In this document: one piece after another, positions 1-8,053 of the stretch
How the letters are laid out: each line of letters starts with the position of its first letter
How positions within the stretch are numbered: position 1 is the first letter of the stretch
Assembly (NCBI GenBank): GCA_018266835.1
Contig: JAFDZP010000002.1
Span: forward strand, 1 to 64,000
Length of the DNA stretch: 64,000 bases
From: Bacteroidota bacterium
GTDB taxonomy: Bacteria > Bacteroidota > Ignavibacteria > Tepidaquicellales > Tepidaquicellaceae
Direction of reading: 5' to 3'
The notes under the pieces: generated by a model
Seen by the model: only the letters and a program-made list of their open reading frames with translations
Database searches by the model: none
What the model was told of the DNA's origin: nothing
Made by a program: the position numbers and the translations under genes

Positions 1-163
1 CGGCGACCAGGACGGAACCAACTTCGATTTCGATAGCGCTGGAATAGAATTAAACGAAGAAGATGTGACTCCACCTATCGTTCATCCGGTATTCAACACT
101 CCAAAGTATACTCCCTATGAAAAACTTCCTGATTATTTCCTCGCTGAGCTGCGCTTGGTTTAA
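1..163 (+). CDS. C-terminal part of small acidic protein, paralogue of the next gene (5' truncated by window)
   Basis: An open frame enters from the left edge (first full codon at base 2) and stops with TAA at 161-163, giving 53 visible residues. It is acidic and proline-rich and ends PDYFLAELRLV. The neighbouring protein ends PDYFLAELHLV, so the two are tandem paralogues with a conserved hydrophobic C-terminal tail. I recognise no domain. Its position immediately upstream of the ubiquitin-like conjugation genes suggests it belongs to the same transcription unit; its role is unknown. Confidence 0.6.
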   Translation, partial: GDQDGTNFDFDSAGIELNEEDVTPPIVHPVFNTPKYTPYEKLPDYFLAELRLV

Positions 164-223
164 GTAACATTCCTACAGTCAATTCTAATAACCATTCTAT
201 CAAATTTTAATTTTAAAAAAGTA

Positions 224-517
224 ATGAACAAATATTCATTCGATCTTCCTTACGACTATACTCAGTATGCAAGTGTAAGAGGATTTGTATATGCAAATTC
301 TGAAGACGAAGCACGGGAAAAGGCGAAGCATTCAGAGAACTGGTTCGATGAAGAGTTCGAAGATTCCGATGACTCAGGAGATTCTTATTATAATTATGAC
401 GCATTAGAAGTTGAACTTGATACCGCTAATGTAACTCATGCTCCTATATCAACTATGGCTAGTGTAAACAATAATCCTTATCCTGATTACTTTCTTGCTG
501 AACTTCACTTAGTCTAA
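224..517 (+). CDS. Small acidic protein of the ubiquitin-like operon, tandem paralogue
   Basis: Ninety-seven residues, unrecognised. The N-terminal half (SVRGFVYANSEDEAREKAKH, then an acidic D/E/S/Y stretch, then YDALEVELD) has the strand-helix-strand pattern seen in small alpha/beta proteins that carry an EAREKA-type helix, loosely like the DpnD/PcfM proteins of mobile elements; this resemblance is weak. The last 11 residues (PDYFLAELHLV) match the end of the preceding gene except for one residue. The conserved tail could be a binding or processing motif for the enzymes encoded downstream. It lies 60 bases after the upstream paralogue and 102 bases before the ubiquitin-like gene. Confidence 0.6.
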   Translation: MNKYSFDLPYDYTQYASVRGFVYANSEDEAREKAKHSENWFDEEFEDSDDSGDSYYNYDALEVELDTANVTHAPISTMASVNNNPYPDYFLAELHLV

Positions 518-619
518 TTACTTCGGCACAATTCTTCTCTGCATATCCCTCATATTAATTTTAGAAACTCTAAAGCTTTTAATCATTTTATAAACTTAAA
601 CAATAAAAGGAACAAACTC

Positions 620-883
620 ATGTCCTGGAATTCCAATCCAAACAGCGGCGGCAGTCAAGCCTCCAACAGAAAAAACGTAAGATGTAATAACCAAGACTTC
701 GATATTACAGGTCTATCAGGTGTTGCGCTTACCGACAGACTCAAAGCAATTGCCAGAGATAACGATATATCGAAATTTGATATATATGATTCTCTGAATG
801 CAAATCTCGATGCAACACAGATTGAAGCAGGTAACTTTACCGGCGATTTGACTATCGTCCGTTTCAACGTTGCAGCTGCTTGA
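620..883 (+). CDS. Candidate ubiquitin-like (beta-grasp) protein
   Basis: Eighty-seven residues. After a Ser/Asn/Gly-rich N-terminus of about 18 residues, the sequence follows a beta-grasp order: strand (NVRCNNQDFDIT), helix (LTDRLKAIARDND), strand (KFDIYDSL), and a last strand (GDLTIVRFNVAAA). The size and the genes that follow (E2-like, E1-like, JAMM peptidase) make it the natural modifier of the locus. It does not end in the Gly-Gly of ubiquitin, ThiS or MoaD; it ends in three alanines, which is odd for a protein meant to be adenylated at its C-terminus. The fold assignment is my inference from pattern and context; no motif proves it. Confidence 0.5.
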   Translation: MSWNSNPNSGGSQASNRKNVRCNNQDFDITGLSGVALTDRLKAIARDNDISKFDIYDSLNANLDATQIEAGNFTGDLTIVRFNVAAA

Positions 884-1109
884 ATTTGTAACGGTCAAGT
901 TTAGCATTAACTAGATCTACTCAGTAGTTCGCCAACAGGTATTCTCTTTCTAAAAAAATCCTTATCAGGGTTTGATAATTTTAATATTGAATGAATTATC
1001 ACTACTCATTGCTGATTTTATTAGGGAATACCTGTTTTAATTTAATTCAATTTGTGATCTATTCAGTGTTAAAAATTCCAAGAAAACATAATCAATTAAT
1101 AAAAAATGT

Positions 1110-2021
1110 ATGTCTTCAAATCAATCAGTACAAGAAAACCAAACGGCTCCCCGGGTCCCCAGTCAGCTCCCAGGTCAGTTGAACACTTCATTCTTTCAAA
1201 GAGTAGATGGGATTGAAGAGACCGTTTCATCTGAAAGTGCCGGGAAGAAATCAAAAAATAAATCTGTAACTAATACAAAAACCCGTCCAACTAAAGAATC
1301 AAAAATCCTCCGTCAGTCAGATAAGCATTTAGTGAATATCATCTCCCGGGAAATCAAATACAAAGACCTGAATGAGAAAATGCTGAAATCAAAGCAGGAA
1401 AACGTATTTATAAAGGAAGTATCAATCGAATCAGAAATCGATTATATAAATTCTTTAAAGCAATTGAAGGGGGTATTTAAAACGGAGCTCCAAACAGCAA
1501 TTAACAAAGTAAACAGTCTTTATCAGACAGAGCTTGTTAAGCTTCAGCAGTTATACCGCTCAGCAGTTGTTGGGGAGTCGTTAATAGCGATTATTAAGAC
1601 GATAAGTAAAAAAGACTGGTATCTGCTCATGAAGGATAACTCAGTTAATGCATATAAGTTCTACAATCCTCCCTTTGAAGTTACTGAAGGATATTTCAAC
1701 TCAGGGATAGTTCACGAATATACATCTCCTGTATGTTCAATAAGAGGAATATATGTAAACATTCTGCATCACAAAATCACTCACGGAACAATACACCTTT
1801 CAACAATTGGGCAACATCCTAACTGTAATATTGGTGGATTTGGTCAAGCTTGTCCTGGAAGCTTTGAAGACAGAGATATATGTCTTGCTGATCCAAATAA
1901 ACTATTAACTCTGCTTGAAGAAATATCCTCAACATATGAGAAGATTCATCTGGATAGCAGCTATTATAAACCGACAATTCCATTTGACGTTAAGCAGGAA
2001 TATAAGTGGAAGGCCAGCTGA
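1110..2021 (+). CDS. E2-like (UBC-fold) conjugating protein
   Basis: Three hundred and three residues. Residues 1-60 are polar and low-complexity; about 90-150 are helical, probably coiled coil. The C-terminal half carries YNPPF and then H236-P-N-C-N-I-G-G-F-G-Q-A-C248-P-G. This matches the E2 core pattern HPN...G..C-L/P-G, in which the Cys is the thioester-forming residue, so Cys248 is the likely catalytic cysteine. Known bacterial E2-like families sit beside ThiF/E1 and JAB genes exactly as here. The start is the ATG at 1110; an ATG at 1106 is in another frame. The gene is 80 bases upstream of the E1-like gene on the same strand. Cys239 is a second, less likely nucleophile. Confidence 0.7.
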   Translation: MSSNQSVQENQTAPRVPSQLPGQLNTSFFQRVDGIEETVSSESAGKKSKNKSVTNTKTRPTKESKILRQSDKHLVNIISREIKYKDLNEKMLKSKQENVFIKEVSIESEIDYINSLKQLKGVFKTELQTAINKVNSLYQTELVKLQQLYRSAVVGESLIAIIKTISKKDWYLLMKDNSVNAYKFYNPPFEVTEGYFNSGIVHEYTSPVCSIRGIYVNILHHKITHGTIHLSTIGQHPNCNIGGFGQACPGSFEDRDICLADPNKLLTLLEEISSTYEKIHLDSSYYKPTIPFDVKQEYKWKAS

Positions 2022-2101
2022 TTCATAATCCAATGAAGTAGAGAAATAAGAAATTAGTAGAGTAAAAAGACTCATAAAATAAAATCAACAATCCTTTTAA
2101 A

Positions 2102-2920
2102 ATGGAAAGCACAATAACAGAAATTAATAACAGGCAGTCAAAAATAATCCCTGACCTGTCCGGTGCTATTGCAATTGTTGCCGGACTTGGAGGAATTGGT
2201 TCCTGGGTAGCTTTAGACTTAGCTTTAATAGGAGTCGGTTCAATACTCATCTACGATACAGATAAAATAGAACCAAGTAATCTAAACAGAACTTTATTCA
2301 AAGAATCACAAATCGGACAATATAAAACTGACGCAGTAAAAGAATTAATTGCAGAGAGAAGAAAGGATTGTTTAGTTCTTTCATTCGAAGAATTCTTTGA
2401 AGCAGAGATGCTGAATAAATTAGACGGTGTGGAATACTTTTTTGACTGTACCGACACAACAAGACTCAAAGACTCGATGTATGAGTTTAAAGTAAAAAAG
2501 CAGATGGAGTTTGAAGAGCTTAAAAAGAAAGAAGAGGATAAGAATAAAGTAAAAAATAAATCAAAGAAAAATTCTGAGACTTCTCAAAACAATCAATCAA
2601 ATTCAGGAGCTCAGTATGCTAATTACGGACCCGGAATTACTAATCAATATCCTGCACAATCTATAAATCAAATTCAGGAATACAAATTCCCTCAATATGT
2701 AAAGCTTGGATACGATGGATTCGAAGGAACTATCTGCCTGAATGATTTTAATGCCGGCAGATGGGGAACAGATTCAAGTTACACAATTACTCCCAGCTTC
2801 TTTGGCACTCCACAAATGTTAAGCGCAGCGGCAGTGATTGAAATGTTAATTGTCAAAAACAAGAATGCATTTACTAAAACAGTAAATGTTACAACTCTTT
2901 TGACACTTCTACACGATTAA
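2102..2920 (+). CDS. E1-like ThiF/MoeB-family adenylyltransferase
   Basis: Two hundred and seventy-two residues. The Rossmann nucleotide-binding loop is G28-L-G-G-I-G33, followed by the E1 signature YDTDKIEPSNLNR (residues 51-63), including Asp52, Asn60 and Arg63 that contact ATP in this superfamily. FFDCTDTTRLKD (about 113-124) matches the acidic adenylation-site strand. A Lys/Glu/Asn-rich low-complexity insert of about 60 residues (roughly 125-190) sits where E1 proteins have the crossover loop. There are only three cysteines; Cys212 (GTICLND) is the best candidate for a thioester-forming cysteine. The enzyme would activate the C-terminus of the ubiquitin-like protein and pass it to the E2-like protein. 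Confidence 0.85.
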   Translation: MESTITEINNRQSKIIPDLSGAIAIVAGLGGIGSWVALDLALIGVGSILIYDTDKIEPSNLNRTLFKESQIGQYKTDAVKELIAERRKDCLVLSFEEFFEAEMLNKLDGVEYFFDCTDTTRLKDSMYEFKVKKQMEFEELKKKEEDKNKVKNKSKKNSETSQNNQSNSGAQYANYGPGITNQYPAQSINQIQEYKFPQYVKLGYDGFEGTICLNDFNAGRWGTDSSYTITPSFFGTPQMLSAAAVIEMLIVKNKNAFTKTVNVTTLLTLLHD

Positions 2921-2982
2921 ATTCCTAAAGCTAATAATTAAAATTTCTTCAAACTAGCAAACTTTTTAAATCACATAAACTC

Positions 2983-4035
2983 ATGAAAGAGAAAAACTCT
3001 AAATCAGGAAGTTCAAATAATTCAGATGGAAAAGATGAATCAGACTCCGGACGAAACAAAGCTGAAAACAAAAGCAAAGAAGCTGTTTCTAAAGCTAATG
3101 GTAAAGCTACTTCCGCTCCTGATACTTTATTAACTGAAGTACATACTGCGCGAAACGGCAAAAGAAGTTCTGGTAATGATGTACTTAACTCCATTCTAAA
3201 TGAAACACGAAAACCTTCTGAAGCAGGATGGGAAAGCGGAATAAAGATACTCGATACAGTGAAGGTTATTATTCCTCTGAAGCTCCTGCTTGTTTGTAAT
3301 CAGATAGCTGACAGATTAAGTGGTGAAGAGTTCTCAATACTGGTTAATCTTACAGAGAAAGATAAAGTAATCAGATTATCAGAGGAGTTTCATATTCCGC
3401 AGCAAGTCGTTTCAAATGCATCTATTGATTACATACCGGAAGACTATAACTTCAACACAGTAATACACCGACATCCAGATGGTATGAACTCTTTCAGTTC
3501 AACAGATAAGAACTTCATCAATCAGAACTTTAAATTATCGATACTCTATACTTATAAAGATGGATTCGTTCACGGCATTTATAATCTAAAGCATGATAAT
3601 TATTTAGTTCAGCTTCCAATTGAAATAAGTGTAGATATGGGATTAGACTTAATAGACATACAGAATATCCAAACAGTCAGGGCTTCAAGAAAAGTAATTG
3701 AGATCGATGATGAAAGACTAATCGGAAATGGCAGACAATATGGTTCAATGTTTGAAGTAGAAGATGACTTACCATTCGGGCGATCAATGGATATAAGATT
3801 CGGACACAGAGGTAAACGAAGAATAATTTCAGATGATAAAATTTCAACTTTTGATTTAGATAAGGACGGGTCAGAAGAAGAGAAGCGTGAACTAAAAAAG
3901 CTCGATGAAGAGAACCTGGATTACGGTCTTATAAAGAGAATTATTCTTGAAGATGTAAATGATAATTTAGAAACCCTGGATATGCGATTGACTAACATGG
4001 AAGATTTTATTCAATATTCCGGGCATTTTATATAG
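2983..4035 (+). CDS. JAMM/JAB-family metallopeptidase
   Basis: Three hundred and fifty residues. Residues 1-85 are polar, charged linker. The central domain has the complete JAMM metal site: an upstream glutamate at E115/E116 (SGEEFSILVNL), H162-R-H164-P, and S172-S-T-D175. Members of this family remove or mature ubiquitin-like modifiers by zinc-dependent isopeptide cleavage. The C-terminal region (about 230-350) is highly charged and of unknown function. It is the last gene of the set, 62 bases after the E1-like gene. Placement with E1, E2 and a ubiquitin-like protein supports a conjugation/deconjugation role rather than a DNA-repair RadC role. Confidence 0.85.
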   Translation: MKEKNSKSGSSNNSDGKDESDSGRNKAENKSKEAVSKANGKATSAPDTLLTEVHTARNGKRSSGNDVLNSILNETRKPSEAGWESGIKILDTVKVIIPLKLLLVCNQIADRLSGEEFSILVNLTEKDKVIRLSEEFHIPQQVVSNASIDYIPEDYNFNTVIHRHPDGMNSFSSTDKNFINQNFKLSILYTYKDGFVHGIYNLKHDNYLVQLPIEISVDMGLDLIDIQNIQTVRASRKVIEIDDERLIGNGRQYGSMFEVEDDLPFGRSMDIRFGHRGKRRIISDDKISTFDLDKDGSEEEKRELKKLDEENLDYGLIKRIILEDVNDNLETLDMRLTNMEDFIQYSGHFI

Positions 4036-4444: not shown

Positions 4445-4759
4445 ATGAAACTCTTTACTAAAGAAATAGAAAAAAAGGCTCAAGCTCAATTTCCAAAAGG
4501 TAACGGCCTTGAATCTCAAGTTGTTGTTGCTAAGTTTTTCAATCCAACAGGAGCCGGAACCTGGTATCTAATGAATCAAGATCCGGAAGACACTGATTAC
4601 TGTTGGGGATTATGTCATATTTTTGAATGGGAAATGGGTAGCTTTTCTAAAAGTGAACTCGAAAATTTTAAAGGTAGAATGGGTCTAAGTATTGAGAGGG
4701 ATTTACATTTTCAAGAAGTGAGTGCGAAGGAATTGTGGGATAGTTTAATTAAAGTTTAA
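4445..4759 (+). CDS. DUF2958 family protein
   Basis: One hundred and four residues. The order of motifs is that of DUF2958: a VVAKFFNPTGAGTWYLM strand pair, a CWGLCHIFEWEMGSFSKSELENF segment, and the closing LSIERDLHF. The family is found mainly on integrative and conjugative elements and plasmids of many bacteria; its biochemical role is not known. It lies about 30 bases upstream of the tRNA-Thr remnant, i.e. at the very edge of the left element, consistent with mobile DNA. Confidence 0.8.
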   Translation: MKLFTKEIEKKAQAQFPKGNGLESQVVVAKFFNPTGAGTWYLMNQDPEDTDYCWGLCHIFEWEMGSFSKSELENFKGRMGLSIERDLHFQEVSAKELWDSLIKV

Positions 4760-4944: not shown

Positions 4945-5883
4945 TTATATCAACCCTAATATCATTTTTTTTAATTCACTAGATATACCTACATCTGATT
5001 CAATATAAGAAATCATTGCTAGTATCCTTTCATTCATATCGGAGTGTTCATTTTTAATTTTTTCATATGTTAGACTATCCATAGTATTTAAAAATATTAC
5101 ATCCAGATCACCCATGTTACCTTCCTTATACAAAGTTATATTGGTAGATAAAATAGTTGGAATATATAATTTTCTTCCCTCTTTTCTCTTCTCATTAATT
5201 TTTTTTAGATCTTCATCATGGATTTCTTTTAAACGAGAATAAACCCAATAATAAAATTCATGAACTGCTTCAATGTAATCTTCAAACAGATTTCTCAAAT
5301 CAATTTCACCACCAACATTATTCAAATACTTAAGAGTAACTTCATTTATTACTTTTATTTCATTATCTGATTTACTTCGTTTCGTTTGCTTTTCTATATA
5401 AGAAATCAAAGTATCTGTTTCTAAAAGTAATTTTCTAGAGCTTCCATTTTCTCTATCCCAATGAAATTGTCTTGAAGGAATAATAAGTTTTATGTGTTGA
5501 ACGTATTGACGTAATTGAAAAAATATATTAAAAACTGGATTAGAAGTTAACTGCATCTTTTTCTCTTCATATTCTTTATAAAATACAGGAGAATCAATCT
5601 CATAATTGCTCATAACGTTATTTGTTATACTCATTAAGGTATAAGAACTAGAAATAAAATTATGAAGATATCTATTCAAATCTCCAGCATATTTCATAAA
5701 CAAATGCCTATTATGAGTCGCAAATACTTGATCGTTTTCGGAAATAACACCATATTCAATACTTTTAGATAAGTCAATTCCGTTTCCATCAAAAATCTCT
5801 AATGCGTATTGCATCTGATCCAGTTTTCTAATTTTCTGATGTTCTGGCATATTATCTAATTCATCTAAAATATTTTGTTCCAT
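4945..5883 (-). CDS. Hypothetical protein (312 aa) downstream of the nucleotide cassette
   Basis: Unrecognised. The product is soluble, predicted largely helical, with no signal peptide or membrane segment. It has a weakly conserved-looking central part (FQLRQYVQHIKLIIPSRQFH) and a region rich in aromatic residues around 205-225 (EDYIEAVHEFYYWVYSRLKE). It is separated from the thymidylate-synthase-like gene by 161 bases that contain a possible hairpin, so it may be either the last gene of the operon or a separate unit. The base composition matches the cassette. It could be an effector or a passenger; the sequence does not decide. Confidence 0.6.
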   Translation of the reverse strand: MEQNILDELDNMPEHQKIRKLDQMQYALEIFDGNGIDLSKSIEYGVISENDQVFATHNRHLFMKYAGDLNRYLHNFISSSYTLMSITNNVMSNYEIDSPVFYKEYEEKKMQLTSNPVFNIFFQLRQYVQHIKLIIPSRQFHWDRENGSSRKLLLETDTLISYIEKQTKRSKSDNEIKVINEVTLKYLNNVGGEIDLRNLFEDYIEAVHEFYYWVYSRLKEIHDEDLKKINEKRKEGRKLYIPTILSTNITLYKEGNMGDLDVIFLNTMDSLTYEKIKNEHSDMNERILAMISYIESDVGISSELKKMILGLI

Positions 5884-5915
5884 GAGAGTAAAAAATAATT
5901 AATAAAAATAATACA

Positions 5916-5938
5916 GAAGATATTACGTGTAATACTTC
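5916..5938 (-). terminator. Possible weak terminator hairpin after the cassette
   Basis: GAAG-a-TATTAC and GTAATACTTC form a 10-bp stem with one bulge and a two-base loop. On the minus strand the hairpin is followed by T-rich sequence. It would separate the cassette from the 312-residue gene. Weak, because the stem is AT-rich and the T tract is interrupted. Confidence 0.3.
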
Positions 5939-6044
5939 TCCCTATTCAAACAATGTAGAATTTATATTCAAATAATTTGAGAGTGAGAATAGTGTAGAGA
6001 GGTTTACTAATTTCCTACCTAACTTATATCTTTTCTGGTGACGG

Positions 6045-7073
6045 TTAAGTGATGATTTTTTGTTCCTTAAATCGCTTATACCAATTTTCCCACAAAAATA
6101 ATAAAACAGGATTAGAACAATTCGATAGGATTTCTTCAATTAAATAATCCAGTCCTTTTCTTCGAGCAAATTCACTAGTTATTATTAAAAGTATATTTCT
6201 AAATGATTCCGTAGCATTTTTCCATTTTATTATTTCCAAAACTTCTTTAGACGTAACTTTGGTAAAAATTAACTGATTACAAATGCTTTCTAATTGGTTA
6301 AATAGCTTTTCTGAATTTTTTTTATCTATAGCAATTGAGTCTAAATTAGAATCAATCTTGGGATTTTTTTTAAATTCTTCAGAAGATAATAATAGATTTT
6401 TAAAATCCTTTTCATATACATGTAAACTGTCACTAAGCTGATTATATGTTCCTAGTTCTATTCCAAGCCATCCAGCAAGGACTTCTTGTAAATAAGTAAA
6501 TTGAACAAAATTATAGGGAACTCCTAAAAATATATCATTGCTCCTTAATACTTGCATCCATTCCAGCTTGTTGTCTCTTACTTTAGGAATACTGCAGATA
6601 TTACAGGGAATATCTTTACTACGCGGTCTGCCAGTTTCAAAAGGTAAATCCTTTGAGGGATTCCAGATTTGTAGTACAACTTGCCTAGTTTTACTATTAT
6701 TTGAAAGAGCTTTGTATGCACGTTCTAATTGATCAATACCATTATAATCTCTCAATCGTGACCCATATGCACCATAATAATTTTTTACATTTCCAGCAAA
6801 ATTTGGCAGACTACTATTCCAAAAATTAAGAAAATTCGCATTAGATTTTCCATTTACTATCCATACAACTTCAGCAAGTGCAAAAGCTGGATTCAAAGAG
6901 GGTTTGCGAGAAAATATCCACCTGTCTCTTGGATTTTCAAATGTGATCCCTGCATGTAATATTTCCTTGGTTGAACCTAACCTACTATCCGTAATATTTG
7001 TATTATCATCCAACATCTCACGAACAATTTTTTTCCAGACTTCGTCAGCCGACTTTCCATTAAAAGTTATCAT
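6045..7073 (-). CDS. Thymidylate synthase-family enzyme (deoxyuridylate C5-alkylating type)
   Basis: Three hundred and forty-two residues, longer than ThyA (about 264). The ThyA core is clear: TRQVVLQIWNP (129-138), catalytic P156-C157-N158 (most enzymes have PCH), then R177-S-N-D180-x-F-L-G-V-P-Y-N188 and D215-S-L-H218-V-Y220. Asn188 is the residue that in ThyA recognises uracil rather than cytosine, pointing to dUMP as substrate. The chemistry could be methylation or hydroxymethylation; the sequence does not separate these. About 110 extra C-terminal residues are helical and unrecognised. Start and stop overlap the upstream gene as ATGA, so translation is probably coupled. The neighbours argue for modified-nucleotide metabolism rather than housekeeping dTMP synthesis. 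Confidence 0.85.
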   Translation of the reverse strand: MITFNGKSADEVWKKIVREMLDDNTNITDSRLGSTKEILHAGITFENPRDRWIFSRKPSLNPAFALAEVVWIVNGKSNANFLNFWNSSLPNFAGNVKNYYGAYGSRLRDYNGIDQLERAYKALSNNSKTRQVVLQIWNPSKDLPFETGRPRSKDIPCNICSIPKVRDNKLEWMQVLRSNDIFLGVPYNFVQFTYLQEVLAGWLGIELGTYNQLSDSLHVYEKDFKNLLLSSEEFKKNPKIDSNLDSIAIDKKNSEKLFNQLESICNQLIFTKVTSKEVLEIIKWKNATESFRNILLIITSEFARRKGLDYLIEEILSNCSNPVLLFLWENWYKRFKEQKIIT

Positions 7074-8053
7074 TTTTTAATATCGTTAATTCTTTGATTA
7101 ATATTCCATTTGGGAGGATACCAGCAATTAAAACTTTTAGAAGTGGCATTAAAAATTTGTTTAATTCGAGTTCTACCGCTTGAACCTTGAATAGTTGGAA
7201 AGGCGACTCTAGAATACTTACTGATCTCACAAAATAAATTTTGACAGTCGATTAATTGTAATCTTCTACCAAATAAATTCTTAAACTTAATATTTCGTTG
7301 TTCAAATTCTAATTCCTGCCTATCACAGACAATTCTTATAACTTCACTCTCATTTAATCCACCTAAACTTGTAAAGCATTTGCTGATACCATCATATGCT
7401 CCAGGTCCAGGTATTACAAATTCGGATTCTTCAAAATTAATAAGTTCACTATAATTTAGATCTATTGTTAACTGATATGCCAAAAAGTCTCCAAAAGAAG
7501 GATAACTTTTTAAAAGGAAGAATACGTCAAGCAGTTTTTTTGATTCAGTAATTTTTTCAGGAACAAAATCCTTTATCATCAATTCAATTAATTTTAAGTG
7601 ATTACTATGTTTTCTTTTATAGCCGAATTTGTTAGCTGAAGCCATAATATATGCGCCGGAATAGATACTAAATTTATTATCTAAAACTTCATTCAAAACA
7701 CTATTATATTTTTCAAATGAATAATCTTTATAAGTAATTTCCTTAAATTCGTGAAGCAATAAATTCCAGGTCTCTATTTTATTAAATAATTTAAATAAAA
7801 GGATTCGAAAAAAAAGCTCTTTAGGAGATTGTTCCCCTTTATAAATAACATTTTTAATTAAAAATTGACTTACTTTATCTGAAGCACGGTAAGCATTTGT
7901 AAATTTGTAGTATTGCAATATTGGATCATTAGTCCAAGGAGGTTTATTATTCTTGACTCTTTTGAAAAATATCTCTTGTCTTTCTGCAGCAAACTTCCAA
8001 TATGCGTCGTATACTTCAGTAGTTTTAATTGGCTCAAGTGATTTAAATATCAT
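7070..8053 (-). CDS. Thymine-hypermodification family protein (aGPT-pyrophosphorylase / hmdU kinase helical-domain type)
   Basis: Three hundred and twenty-seven residues. Two hallmarks match the DNA-glycosylase-like helical family named after the alpha-glutamyl/putrescinyl-thymine pyrophosphorylases and the 5-hydroxymethyluracil DNA kinases of hypermodified phages: LQYYKFTNAYRASDKVSQ (47-64) and a helix-hairpin-helix-like IPGPGAYDGISKCF (214-227). The phage enzymes act on 5-hydroxymethyluracil in DNA after a thymidylate-synthase homologue has made hmdUMP. Here the same partner types (thymidylate-synthase-like, nucleotide kinase) flank it in a bacterial operon. I assign the family from memory of its motifs; the reaction is unknown. 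Six bases separate it from the kinase gene. Confidence 0.6.
   Translation of the reverse strand: MIFKSLEPIKTTEVYDAYWKFAAERQEIFFKRVKNNKPPWTNDPILQYYKFTNAYRASDKVSQFLIKNVIYKGEQSPKELFFRILLFKLFNKIETWNLLLHEFKEITYKDYSFEKYNSVLNEVLDNKFSIYSGAYIMASANKFGYKRKHSNHLKLIELMIKDFVPEKITESKKLLDVFFLLKSYPSFGDFLAYQLTIDLNYSELINFEESEFVIPGPGAYDGISKCFTSLGGLNESEVIRIVCDRQELEFEQRNIKFKNLFGRRLQLIDCQNLFCEISKYSRVAFPTIQGSSGRTRIKQIFNATSKSFNCWYPPKWNINQRINDIKK

Follow-up and report, generated by a model that had tools for sequence, protein, structure and literature searches.

A predicted ubiquitin-like conjugation cassette of Ignavibacteria shares its gene order with cassettes in phage replication modules

Few bacterial ubiquitin-like (Ubl) protein systems have known roles, and those known to us act on the host side. 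In Bil (BilABCD), a four-component system, E1, E2, and JAMM proteins are grouped around a Ubl, and Bub operons likewise bring together a Ubl, a protein of E2 fold, an E1, and a JAMM peptidase, with JAB and E1 fused in BubCD. BilD is described as having an inactive and an active adenylation domain with an inserted region of ~80 residues (PMC11354881), and protection from phages is reportedly not demonstrated for Bub operons (PMC13373217). Cap2 and Cap3 of CBASS follow an E1-E2-JAMM logic and accept a C-terminal Ala (PMC10097602). Operon type 6d of Iyer, Burroughs and Aravind (2006) comprises a standalone Ubl, separate E2-like and E1 proteins, and a JAB peptidase whose N-terminal extension holds a conserved Trp (PMC1779556). 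Here we describe an operon with similar parts at positions 1–4035 (+ strand) of a 64-kb stretch, referred to as the window, at the end of a contig (C2) in an Ignavibacteria assembly of 4.0 Mb and 8 contigs. Its products are a pair of small acidic proteins, a Ubl of beta-grasp fold, an E2-like protein, an E1 that is short and of ThiF type, and a JAMM peptidase; a DUF2958 gene comes next. Our main new result is that environmental phage contigs carry a cassette whose genes are ordered as in the bacteria. We consider it likely that the operon is a complete Ubl conjugation-deconjugation cassette, of a clade also found in large phages, which in bacteria would most likely be directed against phages or mobile DNA.

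Reading along the + strand, the first acidic small protein is present as its C-terminal part (2–163, ending PDYFLAELRLV). The gene starts on another contig (C8), whose end shares 128 bases (1 mismatch) with the beginning of the window and completes it as a protein of 100 aa. It is followed by the second acidic protein (224–517; 97 aa with a net charge of −16 and the motif PDYFLAELHLV at its C-terminus), the Ubl (620–883; 87 aa, C-terminus RFNVAAA), the E2-like protein (1110–2021; 303 aa), the ThiF-family adenylating enzyme (2102–2920; 272 aa, GLGGIGS...SNLNR), and the JAMM/JAB metallopeptidase (2983–4035, with an N-terminal W[ED]S motif). A preliminary description of this DNA had read E1-, E2-, and JAMM-like genes in series after a candidate beta-grasp gene, and had set the locus apart by its gene order, its two acidic proteins at the start, and a modifier without a Gly-Gly end. 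The open reading frames and motifs are where it placed them and the differences are real; where it proposed looking for missing first genes, to the left of the window, the overlapping contig supplies the rest of another acidic protein of the same family. A second, paralogous operon lies whole on contig C6 (locus L008), again with two acidic genes and with 60–73% protein identity to the window operon for Ubl, E2, E1, and JAMM.

E1 architecture, fusion state, and family scores rule out membership of Bil, Bub, CBASS, and PRTRC and, as judged from sequence, place the cassette outside all four. Its E1 is a single domain, in contrast to the two adenylation domains and insert of BilD. JAB and E1 are one protein in Bub, whereas they are separate at all 16 bacterial loci identified here; E1 and E2 are likewise separate at these 16 loci and would act on a predicted beta-grasp substrate, whereas Cap2 of CBASS is an E1-E2 fusion with a cyclase as its substrate. 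No cyclase was found among the cassette genes scanned. The Ubl conjugation cassette read in the preliminary description is well supported by the beta-grasp model of the Ubl, the intact E1 adenylation and JAMM residues, the invariant E2 cysteine, and the conserved gene order, but it belongs to neither Bil nor Bub. PRTRC, which we take to be the type 6d cassette, gave no family match over cut-off on the window proteins, PRTRC_ThiF alone being reported at 18.7 bits against a required 144.75. Type 6d is the nearest in gene set among described operons (PMC1779556). It differs in that the E2-like protein of the present cassette has an HPN motif and another cysteine context, and the bacterial Ubl ends in Ala. 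In the JAMM N-terminal region, compared with the JAB-N domain of type 6d and its conserved Trp and Arg, W83 is invariant and no invariant Arg precedes the HRH motif. A phage-encoded Ubl with a JAB peptidase is also known from TAPI/TAPK of lambdoid phages, but these are tail-assembly genes, and the set as described there has no E1 or E2 (PMC1779556).

The cassette was found at 16 bacterial loci, 15 of them in 9 of 44 genomes of the host's order and one on a contig of a metagenome-assembled genome (MAG). Named relatives are mostly Ignavibacteria MAGs. A scan of genome contigs confirmed 12 loci out of 78 stretches matching the pattern, 11 already in the set; the twelfth, L042, was new and comes from a MAG filed under Sphingobacteriia. 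The E2 occurs in 9 genomes among 148 relatives and, in an even sample of the phylum, in 2 of 395 genomes, both of the host's order; the JAMM profile finds the same two. E2, E1, and JAMM genes stand in the same order at every one of the 16 loci. The Ubl gene accompanies them at 13 and is missing at L025 and L031, which are cut by contig ends, and at L029, which contains runs of N.

Phage relatives emerged from the bacterial JAMM profile, which matched four environmental viral contigs. Three of these carry a Ubl, a cysteine protein, a short E1, and a JAMM gene in the window's order after clamp-loader-like genes, and the fourth starts at JAMM. Scans with alignments of the phage E2 and JAMM proteins returned 20 and 53 loci, respectively, and the complete Ubl-E2-E1-JAMM order was found on 21 distinct phage contigs, of which 20 have T4-type clamp-loader genes (gp44-like and gp62-like) and a clamp-like gene directly upstream. 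Match figures are identical or almost so at five loci (L081, L082, L083, L106, and L107), and independent phage contigs are therefore fewer than this count. Contigs with the phage cassette reach 235,765 bases. At L078, L082, and L087 the upstream block is followed by Ubl and E2 genes, the last two loci stopping at contig ends; at L078 (Ubl and E2 at 5317–6621), no E1 or JAMM gene was seen in the ~9 kb downstream. We found no earlier description of the phage cassette in the open-access literature searched, and no JAB, Ubl, E1-like, or E2-like term was found when a jumbo-phage review (PMC7824862) was searched through its main text.

Comparison of bacterial and phage profiles with hhalign, each E-value being that of a single comparison, gave 87% probability for the Ubl (E 4.1e-6), 99.9% for the E1 (1.3e-30), and 97.4% for JAMM (1.4e-11). 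None of 100 column shuffles reached the score for any of the three, and on these profiles we regard the phage and bacterial Ubl, E1, and JAMM proteins as homologous. The phage protein that occupies the place of the E2 carries its own invariant motif (Y194, H195, D200, C201, W202, and G203, conserved in 18 of 18 rows). Its position is analogous and its function perhaps so, and we treat it as a putative E2. Phage-type E2 was not found in the 395 phylum genomes, in a search that had no positive control. The 15 phage E1 rows used for counting cysteines were picked by a pattern requiring CTD, so the CTD cysteine is invariant among them by selection. Clamp-loader genes are supported by Pfam at L070 (PF16790, E 9.7e-12; AAA and Gp44_lid). 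For the gene between the clamp loader and the Ubl, identity as a sliding clamp was not supported by sequence, and its name reflects position and size: the one protein scanned (L070) matched no Pfam clamp family, no PDB or GenBank phage match was found, and comparison with T4 gp45 gave 1.4% probability.

The model of the Ubl predicted with AlphaFold2 has block values of the predicted local distance difference test (pLDDT) of 82–87 across residues 21–80, with elements in beta-beta-alpha-beta-beta order. Its fold list is mostly ubiquitin-like (Z up to 7.1), with RBD, SUMO, UFM1, and ubiquitin tied and no one family standing out. The best Foldseek E was 0.012, a library of viral folds gave nothing at E ≤ 0.001, and 11 members searched against Pfam yielded no convincing family. 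Near the C-terminus, R-[FY]-N-[VA]-A-A is present in 13 of 13 bacterial Ubls, which lack a Gly-Gly or Gly end; past Ala-Ala there is no tail (7), A (3), L (1), SIAV (1), or EVNI (1). Phage Ubls mostly end Val-Ala-Gly, 17 of 18 having [RK]-P-[YF]-[DE]-[VIE]-A-G with tails of 0–5 residues; the exception, L088, ends DEASAS. A fixed end with short, variable tails is what one would expect if the modifier matures by loss of its tail. Conjugation through Ala has a precedent in CBASS, whose CD-NTases have Gly or Ala as the last residue; the Ala-ending protein of E. cloacae is reported to be conjugated (PMC10097602). A single genome (G014) carries two cassettes ~44 kb apart on the same contig (L036 and L037), each with a Ubl tail of four residues.

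The E1 is a clear ThiF-family protein (PF00899, E 5.8e-24, 85 bits against a cut-off of 28.1) with one adenylation domain, 213–274 aa in length across loci and a single ThiF stretch in the window copy. R11, GxGGxG, N60-L-N-R63, K75, and D118 are invariant in 15 aligned rows and presumably correspond to the adenylation-site residues of MoeB. No cysteine is invariant over the same rows, and the catalytic Cys of canonical E1 enzymes was not found. Searched against solved structures, the E1 profile matches ThiF, TcdA, and MccB best and also BubCD (458 aa in PDB). Those best matches, together with an E1 that, as simple adenylating enzymes may, lacks an invariant cysteine, would suit a pathway for sulfur transfer or for a small molecule, on the lines of ThiS-ThiF or MccB, in which the E1 adenylates the small protein and a cysteine protein makes a thiocarboxylate or peptide. 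We think such a pathway improbable: every copy is accompanied by JAMM and by a protein that has HPN and an invariant Cys, no rhodanese or biosynthetic gene was seen conserved beside the cassette, and the Ubl ends in Ala rather than the Gly usual in ThiS and MoaD.

For the E2-like protein, the model is confident over ~167–298 (block pLDDT mostly >90), where a UBC-like domain with H236-P-N238 and C248 follows a long helix (109–166). Its strand meander, HPN, C248, and helix 262–276 follow the UBC layout, in which a helix comes after the strands and cysteine. HPN and C248 are invariant across 15 of 15 aligned bacterial loci and again in a 13-row set adding L042; C248, 12 residues after the His of HPN, is the sole invariant cysteine. 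UBC proteins matched by the model are Ube2W (Z 5.7, root-mean-square deviation [rmsd] 3.6, 100 aligned), TSG101 (5.5, 3.8, 102), Ube2S (5.2, 4.3, 114), and BubB (5.1, 3.4, 98). Because by the tool's own caution Z < 8 may reflect merely a common arrangement, the HPN/Cys motif is needed to favor an E2. A UBC fold, whose absence from a prediction the preliminary description had named as fatal to its proposal, has moderate support from the model. JAMM is recognized by E116, H162, H164, S172, and D175 (E...HxH...SxxD), invariant in 15 aligned loci, and by Prok-JAB (PF14464) matches at E ≤ 1 in 15 of 15 members, the best at E 6.2e-5; the L025 copy (G005:C249) reaches the cut-off of that family.

From these parts we infer the following order of events. 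JAMM would trim the C-terminal tails, where present, exposing Ala-Ala (Ala-Gly in phages), and the E1 would adenylate the exposed end. As the E1 lacks an invariant cysteine, Cys248 of the E2 may attack the adenylate directly and hold the Ubl as a thioester, before handing it to an amine on target proteins, with JAMM later reversing the conjugation. Such minimal parts, a single-domain E1 with no invariant cysteine and an Ala-Ala end, bear on how a thioester relay could originate from simple adenylation.

The place of the cassette beside the clamp loader in phages suggests a replication target; its place near restriction genes in bacteria suggests defense. Large neighbors, chosen by eye at 11 loci other than the window, were scanned with PADLOC and Pfam, and restriction or other defense genes stand beside 10 of them (L008, L026, L027, L028, L029, L030, L032, L034, L035, and L037), a count without a background rate, for which reason the link to defense islands is suggestive only. 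The matches at L029 are weak, with NACHT and Mrr by Pfam, and the eleventh locus, L036, has weak Cas3-like helicase matches alone. The DUF932 protein of L031 and one protein of contig C8 had no PADLOC match. The antiviral role that the preliminary description had drawn from Bil and Bub has these neighboring genes as its one line of evidence. The four-gene order recurring beside phage replication genes suggests use of the cassette in phage-host conflict, which we consider probable.

Other neighbors would fit service to a mobile element, in which case the cassette would stem from the replication-recombination module of a phage or plasmid and aid the element in replication, DNA-end protection, or resistance to host defense. 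Phage copies directly follow clamp-loader genes. A Mu Gam-like gene and a conserved small gene come after the cassette at 6 of 16 bacterial loci, with DUF932 at three of these. Plasmids often carry DUF2958 homologues (84 records), and no annotated Ubl genes were seen in the plasmid neighborhoods of the three records viewed. Set against this, several bacterial loci are on contigs as long as 0.2 to 1.75 Mb, restriction or defense genes lie near most scanned loci, the bacterial E2 is in none of the plasmid or GenBank phage records searched, and a JAMM search of plasmids returned nothing. Viral contigs gave no match to the bacterial-branch E2 or Ubl profiles. We hold a mobile-element function to be possible but doubtful. 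By analogy with PCNA in eukaryotes, large T4-type phages might carry the cassette in their replication module for tagging the phage's sliding clamp or replisome, and the Ignavibacteria operon would then be a cellular branch, perhaps captured, turned against phage replication; this fuller scenario we rate as unlikely. One gene order shared by bacteria, often among restriction genes, and phage replication modules makes two questions testable: whether phages run Ubl conjugation of their own, and whether clamps are modified in anything other than eukaryotes and archaea.

Several observations weigh against a conjugation cassette with a defensive role. CapZ is the top solved fold for the E2 model (Z 7.1, rmsd 3.8, 96 aligned), above the UBC proteins; Foldseek finds nothing significant for that model (best E 0.46), and 15 E2 members gave no convincing Pfam family and no NCBIfam family. 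Homology of the bacterial and phage E2 proteins is not supported, 14 of 100 shuffles scoring as high. The window JAMM alone scores 15.5 bits on Prok-JAB, under the 25-bit cut-off. In 12 of 15 rows the E1 has Cys at position 116, where a cysteine function is conceivable. The defense link is suggestive, its neighbor counts lacking a control for background, and of the window's own neighbors the two that were scanned, a ThyA-like protein and a 5-hmdU DNA kinase, had no PADLOC match. Phage DCWG was paired with the C248 region in a weak, non-significant alignment only.

The rank of CapZ would also fit coincidental fold assignments, the middle protein being an unrelated adaptor and the E1-JAMM pair alone functional, and viral contigs often carry a JAMM-E1 pair for which neither a Ubl nor an E2 of the present kind was detected (27 of 53 viral JAMM loci, L111–L142 and others). 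This explanation has little probability in our estimation, given the invariant HPN and cysteine in 15 of 15 loci, a strand order and following helix as in UBC, and several UBC proteins, BubB among them, in the fold list. An adjacent pair annotated "metalloprotease" (JAMM) and "thiamine biosynthesis" (E1-like) is present near primase and helicase genes in the crAss-like phage Kolpuevirus OQ198718.1 (L069:5959–8258).

Homologues of the acidic small proteins are found at 14 of 16 bacterial loci, the remaining two (L025 and L031) being cut by contig ends. Scans of family libraries with acidic protein 2 gave no match; the acidic proteins may resemble DpnD/PcfM. They probably serve as adaptors, as inhibitors, or as first substrates. 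The DUF2958 gene of the window (4445–4759, + strand; PF11171, E 7.9e-17) has counterparts after the cassette at 7 of 16 loci in total, one being a fragment, and a CcdA/CopG-like gene lies upstream at 6 of 16. On a Bacteroides uniformis plasmid (L057:8285–9324), a DpnD/PcfM gene immediately precedes DUF2958. Beside the window operon, on the − strand (6045–8053), a thymidylate-synthase-like gene (PF00303, E 2.2e-25) adjoins a gene with a 5-hmdU DNA kinase helical domain (PF18723, E 1.7e-107), and the two are predicted to form a DNA base-modification pair. Upstream of the C6 copy (L008:11327–18616, − strand), genes for a patatin phospholipase (PF01734), a 1403-aa protein, and a weakly matching response-regulator-like protein stand in a row.

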